Assembly (NCBI GenBank): GCA_022428005.1
Contig: JAKMDI010000007.1
Coordinates: 1-64,000 of the forward strand
Direction of reading: 5' to 3'
Origin: Flavobacteriaceae bacterium
Lineage (GTDB): Bacteria; Bacteroidota; Bacteroidia; Flavobacteriales; Flavobacteriaceae
DNA: 64,000 bases
Part shown: piece by piece, positions 20,526-27,713 of the stretch
Layout of the letters: every line of letters starts with the position of its first letter
Numbering within the stretch: the stretch's first letter is position 1
Program-made: the position numbers and the translations under genes
Notes under the pieces: generated by a model
What the model was told of the DNA's origin: nothing
Databases searched by the model: none
Seen by the model: the letters and a program-made list of their open reading frames with translations, nothing else

Positions 20526-21002
20526 TTAAAATCTAAAGTGTGAGAATGCTTTGTTGGCCTCAGCCATTTTGTGGGTATCCACTCTTTTCTTAACGGCAGC
20601 ACCTTCTTCCTTTGCAGCAGCCAATACCTCTTGTGCCAAACGCAAAGCCATCGATTTTTCATTTCTCTTACGGGCAGCTGTGATCAACCACTTCATGGCC
20701 AGCGATACTTTTCTATCGGGACGAATTTGCATGGGTATCTGAAAAGTAGCTCCTCCTACCCTTCTGCTCCTAACCTCTACATGAGGCATTACATTGGAGA
20801 GGGCGTCTTTCCACAGTGCTAAAGGTGTTTTCTCTTCGTCTTGGTTGCGCTCCTCGACAATGGCAAGGGCGTCATAGAAAATATTGAAGGCGGTTGATTT
20901 CTTTCCGTCCCACATCAACATATTTACAAAACGGGTGACCAATTGGTCGTTGAATTTAGGATCGGGAAGTAAGGGGCGTTTTTTTGCTTGTCTTTTTCTC
21001 AT
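20526..21002 (-). CDS. rpsG: 30S ribosomal protein S7
   Basis: Primary binder of the 16S rRNA 3' domain. 158 residues: [40 protein letters not shown] and the beta-hairpin [19 protein letters not shown]. Between rpsL and fusA. Confidence 0.98.
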
Positions 21003-21025
21003 GATTAGTAATTCAAGGAATTATG

Positions 21026-21400
21026 CTATTTTTTGGGTCGTTTGGCACCGTATTTAGAACGGCGTTGTAGGCGACCTTCAACACCAGCGGTGTCCAGTGC
21101 GCCCCTGACAATGTGATAACGGACTCCCGGCAAATCCTTAACTCTTCCGCCACGGACCAATACTATCGAGTGCTCTTGGAGGTTGTGTCCTTCTCCGGGA
21201 ATGTAAGCATTGACCTCTTTTCCATTGGTCAATCGAACCCTAGCAACTTTTCGCATTGCTGAGTTAGGCTTTTTAGGGGTGGTGGTGTACACACGGGTGC
21301 AAACCCCACGTTTTTGAGGACACGAATCCAAAGCAGCCGATTTACTCTTCTTGGTAATGGTGACTCTTCCTTTTCGTACTAATTGTGCTATCGTTGGCAT
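21026..21400 (-). CDS. rpsL: 30S ribosomal protein S12
   Basis: Decoding-centre protein; first gene of the array. 124 residues from the ATG at 21400 ([12 protein letters not shown]), which is the conserved family start; a 7-residue upstream extension is possible only from an ATG inside the leader hairpin and is not conserved. The streptomycin-site regions [15 protein letters not shown] and [13 protein letters not shown] are wild-type, with Lys at both classical resistance positions. Confidence 0.98.
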
Positions 21401-21409
21401 ATAATTTAT

Positions 21410-21430
21410 AAAAAACCCCATTTTTATGGG
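21410..21430 (-). promoter_or_regulatory. Hairpin plus U-run in the str-operon leader (attenuator-like)
   Basis: On the minus strand CCCAT (21430-21426), a 4-base loop, ATGGG (21421-21417), one G and six T residues (21415-21410) lie between the promoter and the rpsL start. The layout is that of a small intrinsic terminator; the 5-bp stem is short, so it may instead be a leader stabiliser. Confidence 0.4.
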
Positions 21431-21434
21431 CGTG

Positions 21435-21464
21435 CAAATGTAAAAATTATTTTTTTCTATTCAA
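21435..21464 (-). promoter_or_regulatory. Promoter of the str-S10-spc-alpha array
   Basis: Minus-strand TTG (21464-21462), exactly 19 bases, then TACATTTG (21442-21435): a perfect match to the Bacteroidota consensus TTG-N19-TAnnTTTG. The transcript would start near 21430. Confidence 0.85.
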
Positions 21465-21542
21465 ACCCCTAGATGGCAAAATTTTATCATTTTTTGTAAA
21501 AAAATCATATCTGTGGGAAAGTGAAGAAATTTTGACCATTTC

Positions 21543-21579
21543 TACCCCCATTTTCTATCACTTTTGGGGGTATTTTTTT
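21543..21579 (+). terminator. Orphan intrinsic terminator
   Basis: TACCCCCA (21543-21550) pairs perfectly with TGGGGGTA (21565-21572) around a 14-base loop and is followed by seven T residues. It is oriented away from rpsL, with no plus-strand gene before it. Confidence 0.6.
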
Positions 21580-21688
21580 ATTGGTTTCTTATGCGAAATG
21601 TCCAGTAAAATAAATGCCAAAAGTTTATTGACAAAACAATTACTGCATTAAAAATAGGATTTTTCCTACACGATTAATAAATAACAAA

Positions 21689-21717
21689 AACTCCTCTGAA
21701 TTGTGGAGTTGTTTTTT
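21689..21717 (+). terminator. Second orphan terminator-like hairpin
   Basis: AACTCC (21689-21694) pairs with GGAGTT (21705-21710) around a 10-base loop, followed by G and six T residues. Confidence 0.5.
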
Positions 21718-21877
21718 CTGTATCAACCCCTAACTCCCTCTAAAATTGATTAATACATGGAATTTTTGATTTTTCTAATCGCTCTGTGCAAGTATATAAT
21801 TCCGTGCTTAATAGGGTGAAATTTATGATTAACAAAATATTAAGAAATTTACCATCGAACCAAATCTTACTATTAAT

Positions 21878-22185
21878 ATGAACATAAAAAGAATTTATTC
21901 ATGTTGTCTCCCCCTATTTTTTATCTTTTGGATGGTCGGGACCATGATAGGATTTTCGCAACAAAAAACAGTAAGCGGAAATGTAACTGACGAAAATGGC
22001 TTGCCACTGCCTGGTGCCACAGTAATTGAACAAGGAACCAATAACGGAACTACCACAGATTTTGCTCCATTCCTACTAAAATGCCTTACCCACAATCGGA
22101 AAGAACTAATAATGCAACATCGCTTGGGGCTGTAAGCTCTAATCCAATAAACATCACTGCAAAAGTATGGTGGGATGTAAATTAG
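21878..22185 (+). pseudogene. Deletion relic: start of a susC fused out of frame to the end of a susD
   Basis: The frame from the ATG at 21878 encodes a signal peptide and the beginning of the SusC carboxypeptidase-regulatory-like domain (VSGNVTDENGLPLPGATVIE), closely resembling the intact susC downstream. After TTDF, where DGNF should follow, it loses homology and stops at 22135. From about 22066 another frame encodes KMPYPQSERTNN and ends AKVWWDVN at the stop 22183-22185, which is a typical SusD C-terminus. The simplest reading is a single deletion of roughly 4 kb joining susC codon 60 or so to the last about 39 codons of susD, with the junction near 22063-22066. The native terminator survives at 22210. 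Confidence 0.8.
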
Positions 22186-22209
22186 TTTTATAAACATTAA
22201 AACTTGAAG

Positions 22210-22235
22210 AACCACCCCCAGGGGTGGTTTTTTTT
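22210..22235 (+). terminator. Strong intrinsic terminator of the lost sus operon
   Basis: AACCACCCC (22210-22218) and GGGGTGGTT (22221-22229) form a perfect GC-rich stem that runs into eight T residues (22228-22235). It lies 25 nucleotides after the susD relic stop. Confidence 0.85.
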
Positions 22236-22251
22236 GCCATTATACCAACCG

Positions 22252-22281
22252 ACAATATCACTACCATTTAATGGATATTGT
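22252..22281. promoter_or_regulatory. Operator-like inverted repeat upstream of susC
   Basis: ACAATATC (22252-22259) and GATATTGT (22274-22281) are perfect 8-bp arms; inside, CCAT (22264-22267) and ATGG (22271-22274) extend the dyad with one bulge on the left. The dyad ends exactly where the -7 element starts, covering the -33 region, so a bound protein would control susC-susD. Confidence 0.5.
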
Positions 22282-22289
22282 TACCTTTG
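22282..22289 (+). promoter_or_regulatory. Promoter -7 element (TACCTTTG) of susC-susD
   Basis: Exact TAnnTTTG match. The expected -33 TTG is missing, which suits a promoter needing an activator at the neighbouring dyad. The predicted leader is about 65-70 nucleotides to the ATG at 22359. Confidence 0.5.
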
Positions 22290-22358
22290 CGTTATATCTA
22301 TAAAATCTGTATATAATCCAGATTTTTAGATATTTGTATTTTTTTTGTCACTATATTT

Positions 22359-25300
22359 ATGAAAGAATTATTTGTTACTCTGTTTTTAATCGTTTTAACG
22401 CCAATGGTGATTTTGGCGCAGCAAAACATCGATGTGAGTGGAATAATCACGGACGAACTGGGCATGCCTCTTCCTGGAGCTACCGTGATTGAAGTAGGAA
22501 CGGTCAATGGTGTTTCCACCGATTTTGACGGAAACTTCAGTATTGAAGTCCTGGAGGGTGCAACTCTTGAATTTAGTTATGTGGGCTATGCTCCACAAAC
22601 TATTTTGGCCACTACCCAGGGGCCTTTCAATATTTCCCTACAGCCCGACAATACGCTGGAAGAAGTTGTAGTAGTCGCCTACGGGACGCAATCAAAACAA
22701 TCGATTGTAGGATCAGTGGCCGTAATTTCAGAAAGTGATATTCAATCCCAACCTGCAACCACCATCACCCAAGCCATTCAAGGTAGTGTTCCAGGGATAA
22801 ATGTTATAAACACTGGAGGAGTACCAGGTACCAACCCAACCATCAGGATCAGGGGAATCGGATCGATTAACGCTTCTGCAGCGCCATTGATAATTGTAGA
22901 CGGCGCCCCCTTTAATGGAGACCTCAACAGTATCGCGCAAGAACAAGTCGCTTCAATATCGGTTTTAAAAGATGCTTCTTCAACCGCCTTATATGGTTCT
23001 CGAGCCGCCAATGGGGTCATTATTGTAAATACCAAATCTGGAAAAAAATCTACGCCTACAGAAATCTCCCTGTCGACCGTTTATGGAAGTTCCTCCATGG
23101 CCACACCCATGCATGACCTCTTGGGAGTCGATGATTATACGAGATACTATTGGGAAGCCTACAGCAACAATGAACAGTACGAAAACAACCTCAGCCCTGC
23201 AGCAGCGGCAGCGGCGGCTTCATCGAATTTAGTGTCGGCATTGGCCTACAACCCCTATGGTGTTCCTAATCCTGTTGACAATCAAGGAAACCTAACCGCA
23301 GATGCTGCTTGGAGCACAGATTGGAAAGACGTCATGCTCAACACAACTGCTTACAAAAAACAACACGGGCTCTCTGTTTCTGGAGGCAGTGAAAAAACTA
23401 ACTTTTATTTTGGGAGTAACTATTTGAGGGAGCAAGGGCAAATTAAATCCACCTATTTTGAACGCTTTGCTACACGTCTAAATATAAACACTACCGTCAA
23501 TGACTTTATCTCTTCGGGGCTAAACATGTCATACACAACTTCGAAACAAAATACACCCAACCAATCGGGGACTTCATTTTCCAACTCCATACAATGGATA
23601 TACACTATACCAAGTTACTACCCTCTTTACAAAAGAGATGCTCAGGGCATGATAACAAATGATGGAAACGGTAATCCGCTATTTGACTACGGAAACAACA
23701 ACGGGCAAATTGTCAACGGGGTAAGGCCTGCCTTGTCCAACGAGAATGCATATGGCGCTATATTAAATAACGAAATCCTAAAAAACAGGACTTATGTATC
23801 CATGAATGGTTTTATAAAAATTGACTTACTCCCCCAACTTAACTTTAAGTCAAATATTTTATATGAAAGATTTATTTTCGATGGTTCGAAATACACCCAC
23901 AACGAATTTGGTGCTGCCGCATCAGTGAACGGTAGGGTAAGCCAAGACAGGGATTTTACTACCACACTAAATGCCATACAGACCTTAAATTATTCAAATT
24001 CCTTTGGTGCGCACCGTTTCAAGGTTGATGCTATTTTTGAATCATACAATCGAGAAAACAATCTTTTTGACGCGCAAGGAACTGGTTTTCTTCCCAATGT
24101 AAGAGTCCTGAATGGAAGCACAATTCCCGAAGGGGTTGGAGGAGCAATCAATCAAGAGCGCCTGATGAGCGCGATCACCAGGGTTAGCTATGACCATGAC
24201 AACACCTATTTTGCAGAGCTTTCTTTTAGAAGGGACGGTTCCTCCAAATTTTCCAACGATACCCGATGGGGAAATTTCTATTCTCTGGGGGGATCCTGGA
24301 TTCTATCGAATGCTTCTTTTGTTGAAACAACAGACTGGATCGATTATTTGAAACTTAAATTATCCTATGGCGAGCTTGGAAATAACAGGGGAATTGGATT
24401 TTTCCCTTATTTACAAGTTTTTGATACAGGCTACAACCAGCTGGACAATACCGGTGTAATTTCCTCAGAATTTGTTGATCCCAACCTGACTTGGGAGAAA
24501 ACAGCGCTCTTAAATATTGGGACAGAGTTTACATTTTTTGAGGGCAAACTGGAGGGCAGTATCGAATATTACAACAGAGAGTCTATCGACTTGATATACA
24601 ATAAACCTGTGGCCCTGTCAACGGGTAACGAATCTATTAAAACCAATGTTGGCGCCGTAAAAAATTATGGGTTGGAATTTTCTTTTAACAGCTTGGTCCT
24701 GAAAAAAGAAAATCTTTTGGTCGATTTAGGACTTAACTTTTCATTTGACAGAAACGAAATCAGCGACCTTACTCAGGAGGAGTTTATCGAAGGCGATAAG
24801 AAATGGATGGTTGGAAAATCTCTATACGATTTCTTTATCAGAGCTTCTGCGGGTGTAGATCCAAGTGATGGATATCAAATGTGGTACAAAGACGTGACCA
24901 CCAATGAAGGAGAGAAAACAGGTGAAAGAATTACCACCAAGGAATACAGTGAGGCCACAAGGTACTACGCAGGAAAATCCTCACTCCCAAAAATGGTGGG
25001 AGGGTTTAACGCCAATGTTGTTTATAAAAATTTCGATTTAAATGCTTTGATCAATTTTAGTTTTGGCGGTTATGTCTATGACAGTGTATATGCTGGGCTG
25101 ATGAGTGGGTTTTCAGCTCCTGGAAGAGCGGGCCATCCCGATTTGAGCAGAAGGTGGCAAGCGCCAGGTGATGAAACCGATGTTCCTCTTTTTCTGAGCT
25201 CGCAAAATGATTTCAATGCTTCTTCTACCCGCTTTTTATTTAAGAACGATTACATCCGATTGAGAGGACTCAACATCGGGTATAATTTTAAAGAAAACTG

Positions 25301-25469
25301 GATGGAAAAATACCAGCTGAAAGGACTTAGGGTTTTCTTTCAAGGAGATAATATTTTTACCCTTCAATCTCATAAGGGTATCGATCCAGAGCAAGCCATT
25401 TCTGGGAGAACAAACTACCGTTCACATCAAATGAAGACTTTTTCTTTAGGTATAAATATTCAATTGTAA
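22359..25469 (+). CDS. SusC/RagA-family TonB-dependent outer-membrane transporter
   Basis: Outer-membrane beta-barrel that imports oligosaccharides or similar nutrients with TonB energy and a SusD lid. 1036 residues: signal peptide (about 1-20, ending ILAQQ), carboxypeptidase-regulatory-like domain (about 24-100, ITDELGMPLPGATVIEVG, STDFDGNFSI), TonB-box region and plug with the SusC hallmarks LEEVVVVAYGTQ, IRIRGIGSINASAAPLIIVDG and KDASSTALYGSRAANGVI, then the barrel to the end (SLGINIQL). No STN domain, so no anti-sigma signalling is expected. Paired with susD 10 nucleotides downstream. No glycan enzyme is encoded nearby, so the substrate cannot be told. Confidence 0.95.
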   Translation: MKELFVTLFLIVLTPMVILAQQNIDVSGIITDELGMPLPGATVIEVGTVNGVSTDFDGNFSIEVLEGATLEFSYVGYAPQTILATTQGPFNISLQPDNTLEEVVVVAYGTQSKQSIVGSVAVISESDIQSQPATTITQAIQGSVPGINVINTGGVPGTNPTIRIRGIGSINASAAPLIIVDGAPFNGDLNSIAQEQVASISVLKDASSTALYGSRAANGVIIVNTKSGKKSTPTEISLSTVYGSSSMATPMHDLLGVDDYTRYYWEAYSNNEQYENNLSPAAAAAAASSNLVSALAYNPYGVPNPVDNQGNLTADAAWSTDWKDVMLNTTAYKKQHGLSVSGGSEKTNFYFGSNYLREQGQIKSTYFERFATRLNINTTVNDFISSGLNMSYTTSKQNTPNQSGTSFSNSIQWIYTIPSYYPLYKRDAQGMITNDGNGNPLFDYGNNNGQIVNGVRPALSNENAYGAILNNEILKNRTYVSMNGFIKIDLLPQLNFKSNILYERFIFDGSKYTHNEFGAAASVNGRVSQDRDFTTTLNAIQTLNYSNSFGAHRFKVDAIFESYNRENNLFDAQGTGFLPNVRVLNGSTIPEGVGGAINQERLMSAITRVSYDHDNTYFAELSFRRDGSSKFSNDTRWGNFYSLGGSWILSNASFVETTDWIDYLKLKLSYGELGNNRGIGFFPYLQVFDTGYNQLDNTGVISSEFVDPNLTWEKTALLNIGTEFTFFEGKLEGSIEYYNRESIDLIYNKPVALSTGNESIKTNVGAVKNYGLEFSFNSLVLKKENLLVDLGLNFSFDRNEISDLTQEEFIEGDKKWMVGKSLYDFFIRASAGVDPSDGYQMWYKDVTTNEGEKTGERITTKEYSEATRYYAGKSSLPKMVGGFNANVVYKNFDLNALINFSFGGYVYDSVYAGLMSGFSAPGRAGHPDLSRRWQAPGDETDVPLFLSSQNDFNASSTRFLFKNDYIRLRGLNIGYNFKENWMEKYQLKGLRVFFQGDNIFTLQSHKGIDPEQAISGRTNYRSHQMKTFSLGINIQL

Positions 25470-25479
25470 TTCAGTTAAG

Positions 25480-26895
25480 ATGAAAAAACTATTCGGTTTA
25501 CTTTTGGTTTTAAGCAATGTATTTACAGTGGGCTGTGAGCAGGATTATCTGGACCAACCCGCACCCACAGAATCTGTAAATTCATCGGTTATTTTTGAAT
25601 CCAAAGCAGGTGTAGAGGCCTTTATGTCGGGGATTCTAAGAGTTAGTAGAAGTCAGTTTGAAAGAACAGATGCTGGGGGACTGTACTCGATGTATTTCGC
25701 CCGAGAAGTAAAAGGAAATGATCTTATCATGGGTTTCCAATGGTATCTTTTCGACTATGAAAACGACAACCGAGAACCCACTTATACAAGGACTACCTTT
25801 AGCTGGGAATTTCCCTATTCAATGATCAATCAATTGAATCTCTATATTGATGGGGTGAAAAACAGCAGTAGTTTGTCCGAAAATGAAAAGGAGGGCTTAC
25901 TGGGTCAGGGATATGCCCTTCGCGCTTTTTACTACTTCCAGTTGGCCATGGAGTTTCAACATACCTTTGCCTATGACACCTCCTTGGCTGCTCCCCCTAT
26001 CTATGAAGAACCTGCCTTGGAAGGAAAGCCCATGTCGACCATCGGTGCCTTGTACGAGTTTATTCTATCGGATCTGTACACCGCTGTTCAAACAACTCCC
26101 GAGACACGACAGAATAAATCTTACGTAAACAGAAATGTTGCCCATGCTATGTTGGCCCGTGTTCATCAGGTGATGGGAAATTGGCAAGAGGCGGCCAATG
26201 CTGCAACCATTGCGAGACAGGGATACAGCTTAAACGCAAGCGAGTATGCTCAGGGTTTTGATGACATGAATGCAAGTGAGTGGATCTGGGCCCTGCCACA
26301 GCGTTCCGATCAAACCAATTATTTCTACATTGCACCACACGCTTTTACAGATAATGAAAGTGATGGCTTCGGATTGGCATTTTGGAATAAGGATTTTGTG
26401 TCCTTGTTCAGCCCAACGGATGTTAGGAACACTTTTGTAGACCTCTACGGCGTTGGAGAGGGTAACGATTACTATGCGAGGGCCTCTTCAAAGTTCAGGT
26501 TTTCCTTTAGCGCCGACATTCCCATCATCAGATCAGCTGAGATGCTGTTGATCGAAATCGAAGCAAAGGCGCGGCTGGGGAATGAAAATGAAGCCGCAAG
26601 TTTGTTGTTGCAATTACAACAAAACCGGGATCCCAATGCACAAGCCAGCGGCAATACAGGAAACGCACTGATCGAGGAAATTTTGGTGGAAAGAAGAAAG
26701 GAATTATATGGTGAGCTGGGTGTAGGTTGGTTCGATGCGAAACGATTGCGCCGTGGAATCACCAGAACAGGAAACCACAGGGTAGGAAGCCCCGCCAATC
26801 TTCTTCCAGACGATAAAAAGTTTTTTCTAAAAATTCCCCAAAAGGAAATTGATTCCAATGAGTATATTGACAATAGTGTAAACAGCAATCGTTAA
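25480..26895 (+). CDS. SusD/RagB-family nutrient-binding outer-membrane lipoprotein
   Basis: Surface lipoprotein that caps the SusC barrel and captures substrate. 471 residues: lipoprotein signal with lipobox FTVGC (Cys19), followed by EQDYLDQPAPTESVNSSVIF. TPR-like helices include the conserved ALRAFYYFQLAMEFQHTF and NRNVAHAMLARVHQVMGNWQEA regions, and the C-terminal part has RSAEMLLIEIEAKARLGNE and VERRKELYGELGVGWFDAKRL. The end is shorter than that of the relic SusD and lacks its VWWDVN ending, so the two were different pairs. Confidence 0.94.
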   Translation: MKKLFGLLLVLSNVFTVGCEQDYLDQPAPTESVNSSVIFESKAGVEAFMSGILRVSRSQFERTDAGGLYSMYFAREVKGNDLIMGFQWYLFDYENDNREPTYTRTTFSWEFPYSMINQLNLYIDGVKNSSSLSENEKEGLLGQGYALRAFYYFQLAMEFQHTFAYDTSLAAPPIYEEPALEGKPMSTIGALYEFILSDLYTAVQTTPETRQNKSYVNRNVAHAMLARVHQVMGNWQEAANAATIARQGYSLNASEYAQGFDDMNASEWIWALPQRSDQTNYFYIAPHAFTDNESDGFGLAFWNKDFVSLFSPTDVRNTFVDLYGVGEGNDYYARASSKFRFSFSADIPIIRSAEMLLIEIEAKARLGNENEAASLLLQLQQNRDPNAQASGNTGNALIEEILVERRKELYGELGVGWFDAKRLRRGITRTGNHRVGSPANLLPDDKKFFLKIPQKEIDSNEYIDNSVNSNR

Positions 26896-26978: not shown

Positions 26979-27713
26979 ATGAAAACTGCTCAAGAAATTT
27001 ATGGCTTGCGTGCCATTATGGAAGCCATCCAACAAGACAAAGCCATTGACAAAATCTGGTTGCTCAAGGGGCAGCAGGGACAACTGTTTAAGCACCTCGA
27101 GCAGAAAATCCGCGAAAAAGGGATTTCACACAGCTATGTACCGGTGGAGCGGCTGGAGCGGTTTTCTAATCAAAATCACCAAGGAGCAGTGGCCAGGATT
27201 GCACCCATCAGTTTTGTGTCGTTGGAGACATTAATCGAAAGTAATGCAGATAAAAAAGCCATTTACCTGCTGCTGGATGGCATTACAGATGCCCGAAATT
27301 TAGGAGCAATAATCAGGACAGCGGCAGCCGTTGGGGTGAGTGGAGTTATTCTTCCGCAAACGGGATCTGCCCCGGTCAATGCAGATACGGTTAAAACCTC
27401 TGCTGGTGGAATTTTTTCTGTTCCTTTGGTCAAGGTAAACCACCTAAAGGATGCAGTTTTTCTATTCCAGGCACATCAAATCAGATGCGTTGCTGTTACG
27501 GAAAAAGCGAATAAAACAGCCTATGAGGAGGATTTAAACGAAAGCCTGGCACTGGTTGTAGGTTCTGAGGACAAAGGCATTCAAAAGAGCCTATTACAAA
27601 TGGCTACAACTTCGGTAAAACTGCCCATGAACGACCTTATGGATTCACTGAACGTAAGTGTAGCCTGTGGTGTTCTACTCTATGAAATTCAACGGCAACA
27701 ATATTATTCCTAA
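26979..27713 (+). CDS. rlmB: 23S rRNA 2'-O-methyltransferase RlmB-type (SPOUT, TrmH family)
   Basis: Expected to methylate a guanosine ribose in the 23S peptidyl-transferase loop using SAM. 244 residues: N-terminal substrate-binding domain (YGLRAIMEAIQQDK) and C-terminal SPOUT knot with the three motifs DARNLGAIIRTAAA, LVVGSEDKGI and LPMNDLMDSLNVSVACGVLL. Probably cotranscribed with rarA 11 nucleotides downstream. The exact target nucleotide is inferred from the family. Confidence 0.9.
   Translation: MKTAQEIYGLRAIMEAIQQDKAIDKIWLLKGQQGQLFKHLEQKIREKGISHSYVPVERLERFSNQNHQGAVARIAPISFVSLETLIESNADKKAIYLLLDGITDARNLGAIIRTAAAVGVSGVILPQTGSAPVNADTVKTSAGGIFSVPLVKVNHLKDAVFLFQAHQIRCVAVTEKANKTAYEEDLNESLALVVGSEDKGIQKSLLQMATTSVKLPMNDLMDSLNVSVACGVLLYEIQRQQYYS

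Follow-up and report, generated by a model that had tools for sequence, protein, structure and literature searches.

A 308-bp unit beside rpsL in a Flavobacteriaceae genome is very probably a deletion scar of a susC and a SusD-like_2 susD

The window, the whole stretch of 64,000 nucleotides that was analysed, comes from a Flavobacteriaceae bacterium and is part of contig C7 (156 kb) of a 1.72-Mb draft genome with 23 contigs and 82% completeness. Between rpsL and an intact susC-susD pair, a unit of 308 bp (21878–22185, plus strand) begins like a SusC gene and ends like something else. Is it a small gene, a recombination cassette, or the remains of a lost operon? EF-G, rpsG and rpsL (21026..21421) are located on the minus strand, followed on the plus strand by the unit, susC2 (22359..25469), susD2 (25480..26895), rlmB (26979..27713) and rarA. 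Here, rpsL and rlmB served as the left and right anchors of the syntenic site. EF-G, rpsG, rpsL and rarA were named by sequence appearance, and the name of rlmB was taken from the original prediction. The intact neighbours outside the unit were tested with Pfam, in which SusC2 showed Plug and CarbopepD_reg_2 domains and SusD2 matched SusD_RagB and SusD-like_3. A scan of named genomes with SusC2 gave 15 loci, 13 of them in Flavobacteriaceae or Bacteroidetes MAGs at 64–81% identity and two at 25–28%. The closest carriers were uncultured members of these MAGs, and their isolate names read as marine or aquatic.

The unit opens with an ATG frame of 85 codons (21878..22135, plus strand) that begins at the susC start and continues past the junction. 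Its SusC part (21878..22063) encodes a signal-peptide-like leader, judged by eye, and the start of a carboxypeptidase-regulatory-like domain, and recognisable SusC similarity ends at TTDF. Residues 30–62 of the frame aligned with positions 1–33 of the 981 positions of TIGR04056 (SusC/RagA) at E 4.6e-10, scoring 38.5 bits where the cut-off for the whole protein is 368. A match to PF13715 covered residues 32–74 (E 2.4e-7) and, at 31.1 bits, was slightly under the cut-off of 32.2. The first 62 codons thus match the start of the SusC/RagA family of TonB-linked outer membrane proteins. Proteins of this family have a plug and a barrel, whereas the relic has neither, and Pfam gave no Plug or beta-barrel match in the 85-aa frame.

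The second half is read in another frame. A peptide of 41 residues (22060–22182, plus strand) ends at a stop codon at 22183–22185, and by itself it had no Pfam match. Its residues 3–41 gave an ungapped alignment with the C-terminal 39 residues of a protein of 474 aa in G389, a genome of another genus in the same family, and 27 of the 39 were identical (E 2e-17, the value of a single comparison). The G389 protein belongs to SusD-like_2 (PF12771, E 1.9e-111), and among solved structures the chain closest to it in sequence is 5j5u_A (E 9.5e-46). The susD 3′ end therefore occupies 22066..22185 on the plus strand (39 codons and a stop), and 22066–22182 translates to SIPTKMPYPQSERTNNATSLGAVSSNPINITAKVWWDVN, followed by the stop. 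Unlike the full-length protein of G389, the relic keeps the last 39 codons alone, too short for a SusD protein. The junction lies at approximately 22064..22068 (plus strand), between the last SusC-like codon (22061–22063) and the first SusD-aligned codon (22066–22068).

An intrinsic terminator follows at 22205..22240 (plus strand), with a fold of −18 kcal/mol and z −4.2, and none of 200 shuffles was as good. It was missing from the list of the pattern scan, probably because the stem pairing extends into the T run. The terminator presumably belonged to the lost pair. No Rfam match at gathering scores was found in 21000–22800. Two further terminator-like hairpins on the plus strand (21540–21582 and 21684–21720, z −3.2 and −2.0) have no recognised gene ahead of them, and they may mark where additional operons, since lost, once ended between rpsL and the relic.

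We consider the 308 bp very likely to be the dead scar of a deletion that removed most of a SusD-like_2 susD and of a susC, which once stood between rpsL and susC2-susD2. Three observations support this: the two ends with their families, an intact pair at the syntenic site in a relative, and scars whose left ends differ in two other species. The intact pair is that of G389, which has the order rpsL, susC (1076 aa), susD (474 aa), rlmB. In this scenario, the ancestor would have carried a SusD-like_2 susD and a susC between rpsL and the present pair, and a deletion would have removed the DNA from approximately codon 62 of a susC up to the point where 39 codons of the susD remain. If one pair was involved, the deletion would measure about 4.4 kb (the 4667 bp found in G389 less the 308 bp of the relic, approximately 4.36 kb). 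The old 5′ end, an out-of-frame 3′ end and the terminator would have been left behind. The original prediction, a susCD deletion relic between rpsL and rlmB that ends in a strong terminator, was borne out on these points by the family alignments of both halves, by the terminator fold and by the intact pair in G389.

The tail was then followed through the family. In G017, another genome of the genus, the relic has 75 SusD codons and lacks a SusC end, so that almost twice as much SusD is retained as in the window. This longer tail passes the PF12771 cut-off (33.7 versus 27 bits) and lies on the same contig as rpsL and susC2. It has matches in 180 of 397 family genomes at E ≤ 1e-5. Among the matches listed, most sit in open frames of about 470–560 codons, and the best from other genera were in G226 (58%) and G389 (53%). 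Within the genus, strong tail matches (E 5e-16 or better) occurred only in G000, G017 and G021. Weak matches (E 0.0017–0.09) were found inside full-length frames in five other genus genomes and at a second place in G017. The window's own genome has one tail match at E ≤ 0.1.

The relic could also be a tandem duplicate of the neighbouring pair. For the SusD end this was rejected, because no relation between the tail and SusD2 next to it could be detected (best 15 bits, E 0.26), and the Pfam families of SusD2 differ. For the SusC end, a tandem-duplicate origin may still apply.

An assembly chimera in the draft genome is another reading, and we consider it highly improbable. The draft state, the repetitive susC starts, and the contigs of G021 and G005 that terminate within susC2 are in its favour. 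However, G017 has the SusD tail at the corresponding position, with rpsL and susC2 on that contig as well, in G021 the tail is found next to rpsL, and the window's contig is 156 kb long. With a 23-contig draft at 82% completeness, the exact junction could still be an artefact of assembly or strain mixture. A deletion scar remains the preferred reading.

The rpsL–rlmB site was compared among the 21 other genomes of the genus. In 12 of them rpsL and susC2 were on one stretch, in G004 they were on two adjoining stretches, and in G021 the rpsL side only was covered; the site reading left out seven of the 21, for example where contigs end or rpsL lies beyond the stretch. In G004 three pairs stand in tandem at this site, two of them extra and intact, and both extra SusDs are over the PF12771 cut-off. 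Another pair lies beside susC2 in G012 and G018, in a compared stretch without rpsL. G021 carries a SusC start of SusC2 type and the SusD tail next to rpsL, and both parts contain stops. No SusC or SusD fragment was found at the site in the other 11 genus genomes at the thresholds used, among which the interval of G013 has many undetermined bases. Among the other 21 genomes of the genus, all drafts, none was found to join the two halves as the window does, and G021 joins the tail to a different SusC start. Short SusC-start frames in G011 (C34) and G004 (C47) are contig ends, and those in G018 are parts of longer broken genes.

Several other features of the site were noted. In G180, two susC-susD pairs lie between a piece of rpsL and rlmB, and the contig holds the first 18 rpsL codons only. 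In three Flavobacteriaceae genomes the pairs in the interval differ and number one to three per genome (L072/L073 in G004, L103 in G180, L102 in G389), as if the interval were a preferred SusCD site. In G018, susC2 and another susCD pair are split into several frames (L075:12854–15955 and L151:4903–9493), which could reflect sequencing errors or decay. An ORF fragment lies between rpsL and susC in G021, and a similar-looking one was seen by eye in G011 (L047:951–1409 and L051:8247–9505). The G021 fragment had no Pfam or NCBIfam family, and PDB gave short matches to designed ankyrin proteins only. To the eye, this fragment, located between rpsL and the relics, looked like the end of an M16 peptidase.

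Did the two ends belong to one pair or to two? The SusC end of the window scored 59.7 bits with the second SusC of G180 and 58.2 with the rpsL-side SusC of G004, versus 53.5 (G389) and 41.2 (G226) with the SusC partners of the relic-type SusD, and 51.2 with SusC2. Identity to several SusC paralogues was 60–74% over 34–36 residues. The end of 62 residues is short and fits several paralogues about equally, and score differences over 34–62 residues are small. The SusC end of G021 was 73–77% identical over 82 residues to the SusC2 starts of G017 and the window and 58% to the SusC2 part present in G021 itself, versus 41–45% to the SusC partners of the relic-type SusD in G389 and G226. The SusC ends of the window and G021 were 63% identical over 35 conserved residues, no closer than the window end is to other paralogues, so they are probably different genes, although 35 residues are too few to settle this.

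The same scar could therefore have arisen from a deletion spanning two neighbouring pairs, with the SusC start from one and the SusD end from the next, since G021 joins the same SusD tail to a SusC2-type start. The three tandem pairs of G004 and the order of the scores of the window's SusC end (59.7 and 58.2 above 53.5 and 41.2) also point this way. On the other side, these scores differ little, and a single pair, as in G389, is the simpler ancestor. We regard a two-pair origin as quite possible, though somewhat short of probable; it is compatible with the main explanation, a deletion scar. Of the original prediction of one deletion of about 4 kb from one pair, the size agrees with the 4.36 kb expected for a single pair, but the fit of the SusC end to several paralogues and the mixed ends of G021 leave the single pair less certain.

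It is likely that more than one deletion took place at this site, because the left ends differ between species. The relic of the window species would stem from a single event. The site as a whole has seemingly lost pairs more than once. In three pairwise comparisons of the tails over 38 codons, 14 of 22, 15 of 23 and 13 of 23 differences fell at third codon positions (one-sided binomial against 1/3: 0.003, 0.002 and 0.02; the three comparisons are not independent). This bias indicates that the tails diverged mostly while coding, and they were probably orphaned later in each lineage.

The relics also differ in their state. In the window species no decay is visible beyond the junction, and the 85-codon frame, the stop and the hairpin are undamaged. 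In G021 the start codon seems to be lost (by eye), a TAA interrupts the SusC part and a TGA the SusD tail, and the hairpin is reduced to −10.4 kcal/mol (z −1.6, 12/200 shuffles as good). G017 is intermediate, with a hairpin of −13 kcal/mol (z −2.7, 2/200 shuffles as good). The intact frame, stop and hairpin suggest that the deletion in the window may be the youngest among the relics.

Comparable SusC-start and/or SusD-tail scars occur at a second site in G009, G021 and G017 (L150:4615–5663, L149:3469–4108 and L167:7721–8027). The flanking genes there are queG and a haloperoxidase-like gene (both named by sequence appearance). The haloperoxidase-like gene was found in 13 genus genomes at E ≤ 1e-200, and the site was compared in 12. 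In G009 a SusC start that lacks its ATG (by eye) is followed by a SusD tail and a hairpin with z −6.2. This tail was 68% identical over 19 residues to a SusD of G018 whose gene passes the PF12771 cut-off. The G017 scar is limited to a SusD tail, 63% identical over 30 residues to the G009 tail, with a hairpin (z −3.4), and G021 has only a SusC-start frame of 83 codons ahead of the haloperoxidase-like gene. In the other nine genomes no match to the SusD tail was found at E ≤ 0.01, with the intergenic stretch inspected in eight. No intact pair was seen at this site among the genomes compared.

Does the relic still do anything? A transcript from the old promoter would yield at most an exported fragment of 85 residues without plug or barrel, and transport function would not be expected. 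No transport is possible because plug and barrel are absent. The relic most likely has no function, and the 85-codon frame, if translated at all, probably gives a pseudogene product. In Porphyromonas, mutants lacking ragB contained RagA only in degraded form (PMC10525598). This is consistent with the idea that one member of a pair has little use without the other.

Retention of the 85-codon frame after the deletion as a small functional exported protein, or of the unit as a functional transcript, appears very doubtful. Frame and terminator are intact in the window species, and G021 has the similar SusC-start frame before its haloperoxidase-like gene. However, beyond TTDF these two intact frames have no sequence in common (by eye), searches of the other 21 genomes of the genus did not find the whole unit, and the scars on G021 C87 and G009 C144 seemingly lack a start codon (by eye), the former with stops as well. 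A conserved stand-alone gene was rejected, since no relative has the 308-bp unit (60 genomes searched by DNA, 22 genus genomes by each half).

SusC/SusD loci of Bacteroides that vary in phase by shuffling have a partial susC sequence beside a full susC. The relic likewise is a partial susC beside a full one, with a similar regulatory domain and the same direction, and a weak inverted repeat (39 nt, 72% complementary) connects 21740–21778, upstream of the relic, with 25022–25060 in susC2. Unlike those loci, the relic has no recombinase on its contig, since PF00589 (tyrosine recombinase) has four matches in the genome, located on C13, C16, C21 and C23, and none on C7. It also has no inverted repeat of at least 20 nt with an arm inside it, and the attached SusD end and terminator would be superfluous for a susC cassette. 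A silent cassette of a Bacteroides-type shufflon is thus extremely unlikely, and we return to the deletion scar.

Deletion pseudogenes are ordinary in bacterial genomes. The relic resembles them in keeping gene ends and a terminator, with intact or differently damaged copies in relatives. It is genuine yet ordinary gene decay, one of several parallel scars. The unusual point is that susCD end-scars recur at two sites within one marine genus. In the open-licence literature searched (including PMC13063519 and PMC10525598), no account of joined susC-start/susD-end relics or of recurrent end-scars was found. We speculate, with considerable doubt, that susC-susD pairs of this genus are lost repeatedly, each deletion sparing the 3′ end of susD with its terminator and in some cases the susC start as well. 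Such scars would make up a readable fossil record of lost uptake systems, and the susD end and terminator would persist because they protect the next gene from read-through.

In annotation, pseudogene fragment is the appropriate label for the 85-codon frame, and not small secreted protein. The scars reveal which SusCD pairs a lineage once had and lost. The differing leftovers at the rpsL–rlmB and queG–haloperoxidase sites could help to establish how often, and when, uptake functions were lost.
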